From NCBI GenBank assembly GCA_015061285.1, contig SUWW01000015.1, forward strand, positions 1 to 48,264: a stretch of DNA of 48,264 bases, given 5' to 3'. The notes below the pieces were generated by a model. The model had not been told where the DNA came from and ran no database searches. It worked only from the letters and a program-made list of their open reading frames with translations. Positions 16,952 through 21,889 of the stretch are shown one piece after another. Made by a program: the position numbers and the translations under genes. The DNA is from Bacteroidales bacterium (GTDB lineage Bacteria; Bacteroidota; Bacteroidia; Bacteroidales; Marinilabiliaceae). The first letter of the stretch is position 1; each line of letters starts with the position of its first letter.

Positions 16952-17725
16952 CTATTTTATGTTTTCCCGAAGTTTAGTCAAATATTGGCACATTTCTTCA
17001 GAATCTTTTCTTTTTATTATGTCGAGAAGTTTATTCATCTGAGACACAATGTTTTCCACTTGCGATGGTGTGTATGGGTTGAAAAGTATTTCCGAGAGAA
17101 GGAAGTCGTCTTCAGATAGTACACCTTTGGCAATGTCGAAATGTTTTTTGAAAGTGGTGCCTGGAGCATCTTGATGCTTCATGCAAGCTGCAAAAACCAT
17201 TGTCGATACGAAAGGTATTGAAAGCGAGTAGGCTATCGTTTCGTCGTGACCTTGGAATGTATATTCGTGAATATTAAGGCCTAACGACTGGTAGAAATCT
17301 TTGAAGAAGACTTTTCCCAAATGGTCGCCCTCGGCAATAATAATAGCATGATTCTGACGCAATTCGCGCAAATTGGCAAACGTAGGTCCGAACATCGGGT
17401 GTGTCGATACGTATGGATGCCCACACGATTCATAGAATTCTTTGAATCCAGTCTTCACCGAAGCAATATCCGACACCATACACATTGGCGATAGGTATGG
17501 CAGCACTTCGTTGAATGTGCTTATAGTATATTTCAATGTTACAGCATTGATGAGCAGTTCAGGATCGAAATCGCGAATCTCCTCAAGCGATGTCAAGCGA
17601 CGTGTGTTGAATACGTACTGCAATCGTTTTATGTCGCGGTCGTACACTGCAACTTCGTGCTGCAAGCATAGAGAGTCGGCTAAAATAGTGCCCATTTTGC
17701 CAGCTCCCACAATGCAAATTCTCAT
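16952..17725 (-). CDS. tyrA: Prephenate dehydrogenase
   Basis: A 257-residue NAD(P)-dependent enzyme converting prephenate to 4-hydroxyphenylpyruvate for tyrosine synthesis. The N-terminus IVGAGKMGTILADSL (3-17) is the nucleotide-binding glycine loop. The catalytic histidine region is STHPMFGPTFANL near 108-120. The C-terminal half is the helical dimerisation domain. It is short, with no ACT or chorismate mutase domain, as is usual in Bacteroidales where chorismate mutase is fused to DAHP synthase. It starts 7 bp after the stop of the upstream DAHP synthase gene. Arogenate use cannot be excluded from sequence. Confidence 0.92.
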   Translation of the reverse strand: MRICIVGAGKMGTILADSLCLQHEVAVYDRDIKRLQYVFNTRRLTSLEEIRDFDPELLINAVTLKYTISTFNEVLPYLSPMCMVSDIASVKTGFKEFYESCGHPYVSTHPMFGPTFANLRELRQNHAIIIAEGDHLGKVFFKDFYQSLGLNIHEYTFQGHDETIAYSLSIPFVSTMVFAACMKHQDAPGTTFKKHFDIAKGVLSEDDFLLSEILFNPYTPSQVENIVSQMNKLLDIIKRKDSEEMCQYLTKLRENIK

Positions 17726-17732
17726 GGTTGTA

Positions 17733-18827
17733 TTACTTCTTTGATAGTTCTTTCATCACGTTGTTTTGTCTATTCACCGACTCTTCGTGAATATCTTCAT
17801 AAACCTTCACAACGAAGTCGGGGTTCAGCCCATTTTGTTCGGCCTGCATACGACGGTTTTGCAATATCTCTTCGTAGCGTCCTTGTTGCAGAATGGTTAT
17901 GCTATGTTCGAATTTGTATTTAGCAATTTTCTCCGACACCTGCATACGTTTGCCCAGGCAACTGAGAAGTTGGCGGTCGAGTTCGTCTATTTTCATGCGG
18001 AGGTCGTCAAGCTCGGTGCGAGGCTTGTCTTCTATAGAATGGTCACGTATCACGAGTGCATTAAGTATAAGTTGAAGATGTTGTGGTGTAACTTGTTGTT
18101 TAGCGTCCGACCAAGCGCGAGCAGGACATTCGTGGCTCTCGATAATCAGACCTTCAAAGTTAAGGTCCATTGCCTCTTGTGCAACTTCTTGAATCAAGTT
18201 TGAATCGCCTGTGATGTGGCTCGGGTCGTTAATTATAGGCAATTGTGGCAAACGGCGGTGTAGTTCAATAGGAATTTGCCACTGTGGATCGTTGCGGAAG
18301 CGCGTTTTTTCATATACAGAGAAGCCTCTATGTATGGCTGCCAATTGCTTTACTCCAGCTTGGTTGAGGCGTTCGAATGCGCCTATCCACAATTCAAGGT
18401 CTGGGTTGACTGGGTTCTTTACCAATACTGGTATGTCTGTTCCTCGAAGAGCGTCGGCAATCTCTTGCACTGCGAATGGGTTCGCTGTGGTGCGGGCGCC
18501 TATCCAAAGCACATCGATGCCATATTTTATAGCTTCGTAGCATTGCTGAGCCGTGGCAACTTCGACGGCTGTGTACATACCAGTTTCTTTCTTAACACGT
18601 TGAAGCCAAGGTAGACCAACCACGCCAACACCTTCGAATGTGCCTGGTCGTGTGCGTGGCTTCCAAATGCCAGCACGGAATATTTTGATGCCGTTTGCTG
18701 CCAATTCACGTGCTGTGTTCATTACCTGTTCTTCTGTTTCGGCGCTGCATGGTCCTGCTATCACCAATGGGCGTTTCAAACTTACGCCTTCGAGCGTTAT
18801 TGGTTTTATGTCTAATGTATTTTCCAT
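17733..18827 (-). CDS. Bifunctional DAHP synthase / chorismate mutase
   Basis: A 364-residue fusion. Residues about 1-260 are a type I-beta (KDO8P synthase-like) DAHP synthase, with IAGPCSAET near 24-32 and the conserved PVLVKNPVN region. It catalyses the first step of the shikimate pathway from phosphoenolpyruvate and erythrose 4-phosphate. Residues about 265-355 are an AroQ-type chorismate mutase (DDLRMKIDELDRQLLSCLGKRM), which makes prephenate. Fusion lets the last common intermediate control the first step. The gene lies in the Phe/Tyr operon between an aminotransferase and prephenate dehydrogenase, so both ends of the pathway are expressed together under the leader attenuator. Confidence 0.94.
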   Translation of the reverse strand: MENTLDIKPITLEGVSLKRPLVIAGPCSAETEEQVMNTARELAANGIKIFRAGIWKPRTRPGTFEGVGVVGLPWLQRVKKETGMYTAVEVATAQQCYEAIKYGIDVLWIGARTTANPFAVQEIADALRGTDIPVLVKNPVNPDLELWIGAFERLNQAGVKQLAAIHRGFSVYEKTRFRNDPQWQIPIELHRRLPQLPIINDPSHITGDSNLIQEVAQEAMDLNFEGLIIESHECPARAWSDAKQQVTPQHLQLILNALVIRDHSIEDKPRTELDDLRMKIDELDRQLLSCLGKRMQVSEKIAKYKFEHSITILQQGRYEEILQNRRMQAEQNGLNPDFVVKVYEDIHEESVNRQNNVMKELSKK

Positions 18828-18864: not shown

Positions 18865-20025
18865 TTATTTCATCTCTTTCAATCGGCGTATTGCCTCTTT
18901 TAGAGTCTCTACTTTCGAGCATAGCGATATGCGAAGGAAGCGTTCGCCTTGACTTCCGAAAATGAAGCCTGGCGTAATGAATATGCCCGTTTTGTGGAGT
19001 ATCTCGTCCGACAATGCTTCTGCCGATTTCCAATTGTCGGGAATGCGACCCCAAACGAACAAACCGCCTTGCTTGCGATCGGCCTTGCATCCGAGCATAT
19101 CCATAATATCGAATGCATATTTCTGACGTTCGCGATAGGTGCGATTCACTTCGTCGAACCACTCTTTGCCAAGCGCAAGGGCTTTTGCTGCAGCCGATTG
19201 CATTGGACGAAAAACGCCACTATCCATATTGCTCTTCACTCTAAGTATGCACGATATAATTTCACTATTCGATGCTGCCATGCCAAAACGCCAACCTGCC
19301 ATGTTGTGCGCTTTGCTCATCGAGTTGAGCTCTATTGCTACGTCTTTCGCTCCTTCTATAGATAGTATACTTATTGGCTTCTCGTGTAGTATGAAGCTAT
19401 ATGGGTTGTCATTACATATAAGTATGTTATGTCGACGACCGAAATCGATAATTTTCTTATATAGTTCCATTGATGCGGGCGCGCCAGTTGGCATGTTAGG
19501 GTAATTCACCCACATCATTTTCACACCGCTGAGGTCAAGTTTTTCGAGCTCGTCGAAGTTCGGTTGCCACCCGAGTTCTTCGTAGAGGTTGTATGTAATA
19601 GTCTTAGCGCCAACGAGTTTTGCTACAGATGAATAGGTAGGATAGCCAGGGTTTGGCACAAGCACACCATCGCCTTCGTTGATGAAAGCCATCATTATAT
19701 GCATGATGCCCTCTTTAGAACCAATGAGAGGCAAAATTTCGTTGTCGGGGTTTAGTTGTACGCCATACCATTGGGCATACCAATCAGCATAGCCCTTACG
19801 GAGTTCTGGTATGCCTGTGTAGCTTTGATAACCATGGACGTTGGGTTTGCGAGCTTCAGTGCTTAATGTCTCAATAATATCGTCGGCTGGAGGAAGATCG
19901 GGGCTGCCGATGCCGAGATTTATTACGTCTACGCCGCTCTTGCGCATGGCATCGAGACGACGGTTGTTGCGCGAGAAGTAGTATTCTTCTACGTTGCTTA
20001 TTCGCTTTGCTGGTGCTATTATCAC
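18865..20025 (-). CDS. Class I/II PLP aminotransferase (probable aromatic aminotransferase)
   Basis: A 386-residue fold-type I aminotransferase. The PLP lysine lies in ELNSMSKAHNMAGWR near residue 235, and the motifs NPGYPTY and VNYPNMPTGA are present. Sequence alone resembles the LL-diaminopimelate/aspartate aminotransferase group, but its place between prephenate dehydratase and DAHP synthase/chorismate mutase argues that it transaminates phenylpyruvate and 4-hydroxyphenylpyruvate to Phe and Tyr. It starts 22 bp after the pheA stop and ends 37 bp before the next gene. Full length. Confidence 0.88.
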   Translation of the reverse strand: MIIAPAKRISNVEEYYFSRNNRRLDAMRKSGVDVINLGIGSPDLPPADDIIETLSTEARKPNVHGYQSYTGIPELRKGYADWYAQWYGVQLNPDNEILPLIGSKEGIMHIMMAFINEGDGVLVPNPGYPTYSSVAKLVGAKTITYNLYEELGWQPNFDELEKLDLSGVKMMWVNYPNMPTGAPASMELYKKIIDFGRRHNILICNDNPYSFILHEKPISILSIEGAKDVAIELNSMSKAHNMAGWRFGMAASNSEIISCILRVKSNMDSGVFRPMQSAAAKALALGKEWFDEVNRTYRERQKYAFDIMDMLGCKADRKQGGLFVWGRIPDNWKSAEALSDEILHKTGIFITPGFIFGSQGERFLRISLCSKVETLKEAIRRLKEMK

Positions 20026-20047: not shown

Positions 20048-20917
20048 TTATTCTTTATGACTTTGACGACCGAGTTCAAATTCGCCGAGCACTGTCAGTT
20101 TGTCGCACAAAGGGCGAACTGCATCTACAGCCTGAATGTAGCGCGTGTAGTTGTTGAACGAAAGGTCGATGTAGAAGAGATATTCCCACTCGCGACCGAC
20201 GATAGGATTCGACTGAATTTTGGTTAGGTTGATGCCGTAGAAAGCAAACACCGTAAGCACTTTTGACAAACTGCCAACTTCTTGTGCTTGTGGAAGTGAA
20301 AACACTATCGATGCGCGGTTGATGCGGTTTTGTGCAAAGAGTTCGTCTATTTCCGTCTTGCCATGTTGACTGACAATCAGGAATCGGGTGAAATTCTTTT
20401 TGTTGGTTTCTATGCCATGCTCGAGAATTTTCAATCCGTAGAGTTCTGCCGCCAATTTCGGGGCGATGGCTCCAATAGTGCGATTCTGCTTTTCGCACAA
20501 TTCTTTGGCCGAAAGAGCGGTGTCGTCGCTCTCTACGAGGCGTATGTGTGGATATTTACGGAAGAATGCTTCGCATTGGCGCAGTGCCATTGGGTGCGAA
20601 TGAACTTCGGTTAGCTCTTCAATCTTTACACCTGGCAGTGCCATCAAATTGTGCTTGATACGTAGTTTGTATTCACCAATAACTGTCAGTCCCGATTCTT
20701 TGAGTAGCGTGTAGTTCGATTGTATGGTGCCTACAAGCGTGTTTTCTATCGCTACAATACCATAGAGTTGCGAGTCGGCTTTTACGGCATCAAACAGGTC
20801 TTGAAACGTTAAGCATGGTACAACTTCAACATCGTAGTCGTTGAAAAATTCGCGAGCTGCTATCTCGTGGTTGGCTCCTGCTATGCCTTGTATGGCTACT
20901 CTTTTGGTCTCTTTCAT
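20048..20917 (-). CDS. pheA: Prephenate dehydratase
   Basis: A 289-residue enzyme that converts prephenate to phenylpyruvate. The catalytic domain (about 1-185) contains the TRF motif (NFTRFLIVS) and the ACT regulatory domain follows (about 200-280, GSLSKVLTVFAFYGINLTKIQ). The Phe-binding ESRP motif is replaced by QSNP, a divergence seen in Bacteroidetes, so feedback inhibition may differ. It is the first structural gene of the operon and starts 18 bases after the T-run of an attenuator hairpin. No chorismate mutase domain is fused; that activity is on the DAHP synthase. Confidence 0.94.
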   Translation of the reverse strand: MKETKRVAIQGIAGANHEIAAREFFNDYDVEVVPCLTFQDLFDAVKADSQLYGIVAIENTLVGTIQSNYTLLKESGLTVIGEYKLRIKHNLMALPGVKIEELTEVHSHPMALRQCEAFFRKYPHIRLVESDDTALSAKELCEKQNRTIGAIAPKLAAELYGLKILEHGIETNKKNFTRFLIVSQHGKTEIDELFAQNRINRASIVFSLPQAQEVGSLSKVLTVFAFYGINLTKIQSNPIVGREWEYLFYIDLSFNNYTRYIQAVDAVRPLCDKLTVLGEFELGRQSHKE

Positions 20918-20934
20918 TTTATATTTTGTCTACA

Positions 20935-20964
20935 ACAAAAAAGCCCACCGTTTCTGGTGGGCTT
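20935..20964 (-). terminator. Attenuator terminator before pheA
   Basis: On the minus strand the stem GCCCACC / GGTGGGC (extended to AAGCCCACC / GGTGGGCTT) with loop AGAAAC is followed by TTTTTTGTTG. This intrinsic terminator sits between the promoter and pheA, so it must be conditional. Its 5' arm can also pair with GGTGGG at 20999-21004 inside the leader peptide gene, the classic antiterminator arrangement. Confidence 0.85.
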
Positions 20965-20986
20965 ATTTCTATAAGTAATCAAATTA

Positions 20987-21067
20987 TTATTTACAACACC
21001 CACCGCTCTTTTGGCAATAACCAAAAAAGTAAAAGTAAAAACCGAAGTAAAATCGTGCAGTAAGCAT
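20987..21067 (-). CDS. Phe/Tyr-rich leader peptide of the pheA operon
   Basis: A 26-residue ORF starting MLTA followed by RFYFGFYFYFFGY (residues 5-17) and ending CQKSGGCCK. Six Phe and four Tyr codons lie within twelve consecutive positions (6-17), which is far from chance. It ends 22 bases before a strong intrinsic terminator that precedes pheA, and it follows a -7 box at 21109-21116. Codons 22-23 (GGT GGG) are complementary to the terminator's 5' arm. Model by analogy with pheA/trp leaders: a ribosome starved of Phe- or Tyr-tRNA stalls on these codons, leaves GGTGGG free to form the antiterminator and lets transcription reach pheA. An overlapping out-of-phase frame exists but lacks such bias. 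Confidence 0.85.
   Translation of the reverse strand: MLTARFYFGFYFYFFGYCQKSGGCCK
20999..21004 (-). promoter_or_regulatory. Antiterminator strand within the leader gene
   Basis: GGTGGG on the minus strand (leader codons 22-23) is complementary to CCCACC of the terminator's 5' arm, with a further G-U pair possible. A ribosome at the leader stop codon would cover it, whereas one stalled at residues 6-15 would not. Confidence 0.65.
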
Positions 21068-21108
21068 TGTCTTTCTATATCTTTTGTCATTTGTCGTTTT
21101 CGACGCAG

Positions 21109-21116
21109 CAAAAGTA
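21109..21116 (-). promoter_or_regulatory. Bacteroidetes -7 box for the aromatic operon
   Basis: The minus strand reads TACTTTTG (TAnnTTTG). Transcription would start near 21102, about 35 bases before the leader peptide ATG. A TTTG further upstream is too distant to be a good -33 element. Confidence 0.55.
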
Positions 21117-21166: not shown

Positions 21167-21889
21167 TTACAAGAAGCGACGATGAACCGCTCTAAAAAAT
21201 GCTTCAACGGTAGGGTCGTTTTCGTCGAAATGGTATGTGCTCATCACTTTTCCATATGCCTCGTTGAAGTCGGTAGATTGGTTTATCATGTCGATGATAG
21301 TGTTGAATTCGTTGGTTTTTCCACCGAATAGTTCTTTCTGATACAAGAATCTATCGCTGATACTGAACGCTTTAGCCACGTTGTCGACTGGTGTTCCGTA
21401 ATTTACAAGGTCAGCCGAATTGATAGCTTTTGCAGGTTTGGGTTCTGGCGTGGGCGCCGCAACTTTAGGAGCTGGTTTGGGCTGAGGTTTTGGCTCAACT
21501 TTGGCTTGTGGTTTAGGTTCTGGTTTAGGTTCTGGCTTGGGTTCAGGCTTAGGCCTTGGGCTCTCTTTGGGCGCGTTGTTGACGGTTGTAGCCACATCGA
21601 CAGGTTTTGTTGGCTCTTCAACCACATCGTGAAGCTCAGGCTCACTTTCTATAACTATGGTAGTGTTTTCGGTCTTTGGACTGCAGCTACTCTTTATGCA
21701 CGCTTGGTTGTCGTTGTCTTTTGCCCAATGGTCGAGTAGAGCTATTTCGTTGGATATGCCTGAGTTTTTGCGCTTTAGCAGTTCTATAAAATCTTGTTCG
21801 ATGGTATCGGCTTCTTTGAAAGTCTCAACCAAATTGCTCATTTCCCTAAGGTCGCTAATTATGATGTCGATTATCGCGTTCTTTTTCAT
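21167..21889 (-). CDS. Conserved Bacteroidales hypothetical protein with Pro/Lys/Glu linker
   Basis: A 240-residue protein in three parts: an N-terminal helical region (1-60), a low-complexity linker at about 105-155 built from PKPEPKPE-like repeats, and a C-terminal helical domain (about 165-240; KAFSISDRFLYQKELFGGK then EAYGKVMSTYHFDENDPTVEAFFRAVHRRF). The last domain belongs to a common Bacteroidetes hypothetical family with the pattern NDRFxFxxELFGG. No signal peptide or TM segment is obvious, so it is likely cytoplasmic. It is transcribed divergently from thymidine kinase. Function unknown. Confidence 0.75.
   Translation of the reverse strand: MKKNAIIDIIISDLREMSNLVETFKEADTIEQDFIELLKRKNSGISNEIALLDHWAKDNDNQACIKSSCSPKTENTTIVIESEPELHDVVEEPTKPVDVATTVNNAPKESPRPKPEPKPEPKPEPKPQAKVEPKPQPKPAPKVAAPTPEPKPAKAINSADLVNYGTPVDNVAKAFSISDRFLYQKELFGGKTNEFNTIIDMINQSTDFNEAYGKVMSTYHFDENDPTVEAFFRAVHRRFL

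Follow-up and report, generated by a model that had tools for sequence, protein, structure and literature searches.

The pheA gene of this contig, from a gut bacterium of the Bacteroidales, is preceded by a short open reading frame (ORF) rich in phenylalanine and tyrosine codons and by a hairpin with a T-run. Do these elements together control the operon, and what do they sense? We examined the locus in the window (the whole stretch of DNA analyzed, 48,264 nucleotides) and in related genomes. The comparison makes it very probable (about 0.93) that the pheA leader is a ribosome-mediated transcription attenuator sensing charged tRNA-Phe and tRNA-Tyr.

The leader locus and its operon

The features of the locus are as follows.

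21109..21116, minus strand: −7 promoter box TACTTTTG (TAnnTTTG), from the sequence
21057..21070, minus strand: region 1, which spans the leader start codon and can pair with 20993-21006 (protector helix), from the minimum free energy (MFE) fold
20987..21067, minus strand: leader ORF MLTARFYFGFYFYFFGYCQKSGGCCK, ATG at 21067, 26 codons plus stop (20989-20987), from the sequence and kept in relatives
21017..21052, minus strand: control codons 6-17 FYFGFYFYFFGY, ten Phe/Tyr in twelve, from the sequence
20998..21004, minus strand: region 2, GGTGGGT, antiterminator strand, codons 22-24, from the sequence and the pairing permutation test
20956..20962, minus strand: region 3, GCCCACC, terminator 5' arm, common to terminator and antiterminator, from the sequence and pairing
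between GCCCACC (ends 20956) and GGTGGGC (starts 20949), minus strand: terminator loop AGAAAC, from the sequence
20943..20949, minus strand: region 4, GGTGGGC, terminator 3' arm, from the sequence and fold
20937..20942, minus strand: T-run of the intrinsic terminator, six T, from the sequence
20048..20917, minus strand: pheA, prephenate dehydratase (PF00800), ATG at 20917, Pfam E-value 1.1e-55
18865..20025, minus strand: class I/II aminotransferase (PF00155), by Pfam
17733..18827, minus strand: DAHP synthase fused to chorismate mutase (PF00793 + PF01817), by Pfam
16952..17725, minus strand: tyrA, prephenate dehydrogenase (PF02153), Pfam E-value 7.5e-8

The gene order on the minus strand is leader ORF, terminator, pheA, aminotransferase, DAHP synthase-chorismate mutase (DAHPS-CM), and tyrA. 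All of the parts named in the preliminary description are present: the −7 box, the 26-codon ORF, ten Phe/Tyr codons in twelve, GGTGGG (21004-20999, codons 22-23 of the leader ORF, minus strand), the terminator, the T-run, and pheA. The locus thus has two features expected of an attenuator: a short leader ORF in which codons for the operon's products are clustered, and an intrinsic terminator between this ORF and pheA. By eye, no −33 element was seen at the customary distance from the −7 box. Among 2868 start-to-stop ORFs of 8-60 amino acids on both strands of the window, the leader ORF, which scored 10 and was listed from two starts, is the only one with more than seven Phe/Tyr in 12 codons. 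The upstream gene (21167-21889, minus strand) encodes a product with a long PKPEPKPEP-like repeat and without a Pfam family.

The leader RNA has a folding energy of −49.9 kcal/mol, compared with −28.2 kcal/mol for dinucleotide shuffles (z −6.45, 0/200). Its MFE fold consists of two hairpins, the terminator and a helix joining the start region to 21006-20993. The latter, the region 1:2 helix, comprises 14 contiguous pairs, including G-U, between 21070-21057 and 21006-20993. It is possibly a 1:2 "protector", an element absent from the list in the preliminary description.

The ribosome was modeled by masking at ten positions in the window, eight of them within the Phe/Tyr run. With codons 6-17 in the A site, the region 2:3 helix remains, and before region 4 emerges the antiterminator amounts to −13.5 kcal/mol or lower with the ribosome on the tested codons. 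When codon 21 or the stop codon is in the A site, the helix is lost. In the modeled window, a stall thus frees region 2 and a ribosome at the stop covers it, and the relatives behave likewise under the lax criterion given below. Once region 4 is present, the equilibrium favors the terminator, even for a ribosome stalled at codon 17; therefore, the switch must be kinetic. The order of synthesis also matters in known attenuator systems.

Conservation and pairing in relatives

Three sets of pheA loci were compared. The nearest set started from 80 named pheA loci, of which three with less than 190 nt upstream were dropped. The order set was drawn from 109 genomes, each representing a different family and at least 90% complete; of these, 48 had a PF00800 match and gave 44 usable loci. 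The phylum sample contained 158 genomes; 138 had PF00800 and yielded 34 class loci and 40 loci from other classes (39 genomes). The pairs L108/L234, L109/L238, and L110/L235 appear, to judge by their lengths, to be identical contigs and represent overlap of the samples. A leader was called at a Phe/Tyr score of 6 in 12 codons. In 775 windows of 560 nt drawn at random from related loci, the best score was at least 6, 7, and 8 in 4.6%, 1.2%, and 0.13%, respectively.

The predicted conservation of the Phe/Tyr run upstream of pheA was borne out. A Phe/Tyr-rich leader precedes pheA in all 77 usable nearest loci, in 41/44 order loci, and in 30/34 class loci. Beyond the class it was found in 5/40 loci, a count that leaves out L150, L160, and L165 (scores 6-7) because of their distance and look. 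The TAnnTTTG box lies 10-130 nt 5' of the leader ATG in 119/149 leader loci, compared with 15/425 random 120-nt windows. Five class leaders of a single family (L114, L115, L121, L127, and L132) contain Asn-Asn within the aromatic run (YFSNNFYFFF and alike). Two loci from reduced genomes (L245, 1.2 Mb; L335, 1.0 Mb) keep the four-gene operon without a Phe/Tyr leader, and a leader is present at L334, from a 2.7 Mb genome of the same family. A PF00800 match was missing in 61 of the 109 order genomes, which suggests many Phe auxotrophs or another route.

An intrinsic terminator was located 3' of 150/153 leaders; a stricter scan, applied to the first 77, recovered it in 70. The terminator arms differ by clade (CCCACC, CCCGCC, CCUGCC, CUCACU, and others), and the leader end shifts in step. 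When each leader end was paired with its own arm, no permutation of the arms in 1000 did as well in any set: the z-scores were 14.1 in the order set (one per family, n = 39), 9.6 in the class/phylum set (one per genus, n = 27), and 9.3 in the nearest set (39 distinct pairs). An antiterminator that excludes the terminator and is kept by compensating changes, the further hallmark of an attenuator, was thus found by pairing and permutation. The preliminary description had stated that GGTGGG can pair with the terminator 5' arm to give two exclusive folds, and had proposed compensatory changes as a check; the fold of the window and the own-arm permutations agree with the former, and the stepwise changes between clades with the latter.

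Against dinucleotide shuffles, the region 2:3 pairing reached p 0.05 in 56/70 loci and p 0.01 in 40/70, and in the remaining 14/70 loci it was no better than the shuffles at p 0.05. The distance from the last Phe/Tyr codon to the start of region 2 has medians of 12, 9, and 12 nt in the three sets. The distance from region 2 to the stop codon is far more variable, at about −2 to +30 (10-90%). In short leaders the stop codon lies right at region 2, and in others it lies 20-30 nt beyond. For the region 1:2 protector, the permutation z-scores in relatives were 3.2-7.7, and only 15/70 loci fell below shuffle p 0.05, so that the helix is weak outside the near relatives. A general protector across relatives is favored by permutation alone and not supported by the shuffles.

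Ribosome positions were also modeled in sets of 76, 27, and 39 loci. Under a lax criterion (engagement of the arm greater by 0.2 when stalled than at the stop), the switch was seen in 74/76, 27/27, and 35/39 loci, 136/142 in total. A strict criterion (arm at least 0.4 engaged when stalled and less than 0.2 at the stop) gave 49/76, 18/27, and 19/39, or 86/142. With the ribosome at the stop, engagement of the arm remained at 0.4 or more in 10, 2, and 7 loci of the respective sets.

Leader codons and the genes behind them

Some relatives carry pheA alone, with neither tyrA nor DAHPS behind it. Eight such loci, spanning four families, have a leader: L210 (MTRFFTHFFFFFTQQ), L236 and L306 (FRFFFFFAFFF), L251 (SFFFFFF), L308 (GFFFFFFG), L309 (RFSFLFFFF), L214 (FDFVFGFLFCF), and L310 (RFFFYF). 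Tyr is absent from the 12-codon window of five of these leaders and occurs once in that of the other three. For L309 we took the ORF nearest pheA, an alternative ORF with Tyr being 415 nt away, and L310 was kept despite its score of 5, below the cut of 6. The lone pheA loci L113, L130, L227, L305, and L307 showed no leader.

Of 181 operons with a verified downstream DAHPS or tyrA, 171 have a leader, and none of the 171 leaders is without Tyr; a single one (L220) has only one Tyr. Among the 10/181 such operons without a leader before pheA are the class loci L125 and L134, where the leader sits before DAHPS instead, because the operon there begins with DAHPS-CM. Fisher's test, run with 176 in place of 171 and uncorrected for kinship, gave 3e-8 for absence of Tyr (5/8 lone pheA leaders versus none of the DAHPS/tyrA leaders) and 3e-13 for at most one Tyr (8/8 versus one); the 176 include five contigs that stop short of DAHPS. 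Leader and DAHPS also co-occur: the class/phylum and order sets together comprise 118 loci, of which 71 have both, 5 the leader only, 7 DAHPS only, and 35 neither (Fisher 1e-17, kinship uncorrected). The contrast is repeated within families. In family f48, G241 has a lone pheA with a Phe-only leader, while G345, G426, and G540 have the full operon and mixed leaders; in f122, G315 and G467 (lone pheA) stand against G520 (full operon) in the same manner. This natural experiment favors codon sensing.

In 13 Bacteroidales genomes (G241, G251, G260, G291, G315, G324, G353, G381, G433, G454, G467, G494, and G511), the split tyrA/DAHPS operon starts with its own Phe+Tyr leader, which in eight of them also contains Trp. 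A terminator-like hairpin stands behind all 13. The preliminary description had argued that a mixed leader fits an operon serving both branches, and the genomes bear this out: leaders of lone pheA are Phe-only or nearly so, and those of split tyrA/DAHPS operons combine Phe and Tyr. Region 2 pairing is weak in the split-operon leaders L342 and L345 (12.6 and 11.6) and not convincing in L285. G496 was left out of the tally because its contig ends 162 nt upstream, and the tyrA search gave no match in G437 and G278. In G082 and G165, split genomes of another order, no clear leader was found before DAHPS-CM: ORFs ending in YRFYWYC or YRFYYWYC are present there, and the scan detected no terminator. 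At about 22-300 of the reverse complement of L285, from one genome, tandem leader-terminator units, MTTYTFSYFYYWFRTP then MVNFEFYYGFYYYLD, lie 5' of aminotransferase-tyrA-DAHPS. At L200 and L203, from a family of another order, the ORFs with the YRFYWYC or YRFYYWYC ending lie at about 1200-1300, before DAHPS-CM, with neither a near ATG nor, by the scan, a terminator; these are possibly an odd form of leader.

Sister operons carry leaders with other codons. In the genus of the window, 15/15 genomes have a leader containing 3-4 Trp upstream of trpE, and 9/15 have one containing 6-7 His upstream of hisG. In its own genome (L260 and L269, reverse complement), the Trp leader MYNNIWWWRKSYFQSRR lies 5' of trpE and the His leader MILNVHHHHHHHSLQQ lies 5' of hisG, each followed by a terminator.

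Mechanism, alternatives, and known systems

The DNA itself shows the parts and how far they are conserved, the mutually exclusive pairings that co-vary, the spacing, and the agreement of leader codons with the genes of the operon; from these we infer leader translation, stalling, termination, and a response to starvation. RNA polymerase would start just 5' of the leader ORF, with a ribosome behind it. When either Phe- or Tyr-tRNA runs short, the ribosome would stall in codons 6-17 and leave region 2 free to pair with region 3; the terminator would be blocked, and pheA, the aminotransferase, DAHPS-CM, and tyrA would be transcribed. If both are ample, the ribosome would proceed over region 2, regions 3 and 4 would pair, and transcription would end near 20937. 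If the leader is not translated, the region 1:2 helix would hold the terminator on.

The conserved run might instead act as a peptide. In such a TnaC-type arrangement, the aromatic nascent peptide, not tRNA charging, would arrest the ribosome or bind an effector. Conservation at the amino-acid level with mixed codon choice (TTT 611, TTC 186, TAT 314, and TAC 239 in the Phe/Tyr runs) is compatible with this. However, the order and spacing of Phe and Tyr vary freely from family to family, and the residues beyond the run track the RNA pairing rather than a peptide motif. Moreover, Tyr is lost where pheA is alone but retained by that genome's tyrA/DAHPS leader, and the sister operons have Trp-only and His-only runs. 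We therefore regard a peptide effect as improbable.

The hairpin could also terminate transcription of the upstream gene or act as a constitutive attenuator, with the short ORF having no regulatory role, as the same-strand gene ends at 21167, about 220 nt 5' of the hairpin. However, the −7 box, leader, and terminator intervene between that gene and pheA and recur together in relatives, and the own-arm permutations tie the leader end to the terminator; this explanation is very improbable. Least to be expected is a leader that binds a metabolite or protein (a riboswitch, T-box, or similar). The 5' region is long and structured, as such a leader would be, but what is conserved in it outside the ORF is the pairing arms. 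A riboswitch or T-box was rejected because no Rfam family reached its cut-off in the window. Ribosome-mediated attenuation, as proposed in the preliminary description, is thus supported by the sequence-based tests.

Beyond this locus, it is rather likely that a family of aromatic attenuators extends across Bacteroidota with its control codons adapted to the genes that follow. Leaders of lone pheA would then use Phe, those of operons with tyrA or DAHPS-CM would use Phe+Tyr, and some DAHPS operons would add Trp, so that one leader would read all three aromatics. If so, transcription and translation would be closely coupled in the phylum, and 12 codons could predict operon content. The comparison of split operons serves as an evolutionary test and points to selection on codon identity, not on the peptide or T-rich RNA. 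The switch depends on a ribosome that follows RNA polymerase closely, so the leaders make transcription-translation coupling in Bacteroidota, which include the Bacteroidales dominant in the gut, directly testable by reporter.

Leader-peptide control of amino-acid synthesis is textbook knowledge for proteobacteria. The mechanism itself is known, and the flavobacterial literature already hints at it in this phylum. In Flavobacterium psychrophilum, strong clues to leader-peptide attenuation before amino-acid operons were reported, as were 5' elements upstream of pheA and hisG, the one at pheA being structured and shared among Flavobacteriaceae (PMC9723704). The leader here shares the phylum with that pheA element; the passages of that paper considered here are without the leader sequence, the Phe/Tyr logic, and analysis beyond Flavobacteriaceae, which are present here. 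In B. thetaiotaomicron, small ORFs in 5' UTRs reminiscent of leader peptides were described (PMC7366714). The available part of PMC2965389 contains no word starting with "bacteroid" and no "pheA", and we found no worked-out leader-peptide regulation of Bacteroidales pheA in open-licence PMC papers. The study of attenuation across bacteria by Lopatovskaya (2010), cited in PMC4833913, may already list Bacteroidetes cases; therefore, we make no claim of priority. On comparative evidence, the proposed pheA attenuator is unusually well supported.

E. coli pheL is a Phe-rich leader. The best sub-threshold Rfam match in the leader here is Phe_leader (RF01859; 27.7 bits, E 0.0083, cut-off 55), and Thr_leader and Trp_leader are also among such matches; by score, it is not a member of Rfam Phe_leader. 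Three leaders gave no match up to E 10 to the NCBIfam/Pfam leader-peptide profiles, although the filters may miss peptides this short. The shared design with the enterobacterial pheA (pheL) and trp attenuators (RF01859, RF00513) includes the short ORF with control codons, regions 1/2/3/4, an intrinsic terminator, an excluding antiterminator, and structural genes behind. Unlike in those systems, the codons here are mixed Phe and Tyr, and the four-gene operon covers both branches and the entry step. In the enterobacterial thrABC (Thr/Ile) and ilvGMEDA (Leu/Val/Ile) attenuators, several amino acids are read by one leader. The sensing of several amino acids is alike; here, however, they are Phe and Tyr, sometimes joined by Trp, and from lineage to lineage the combination follows the gene content.
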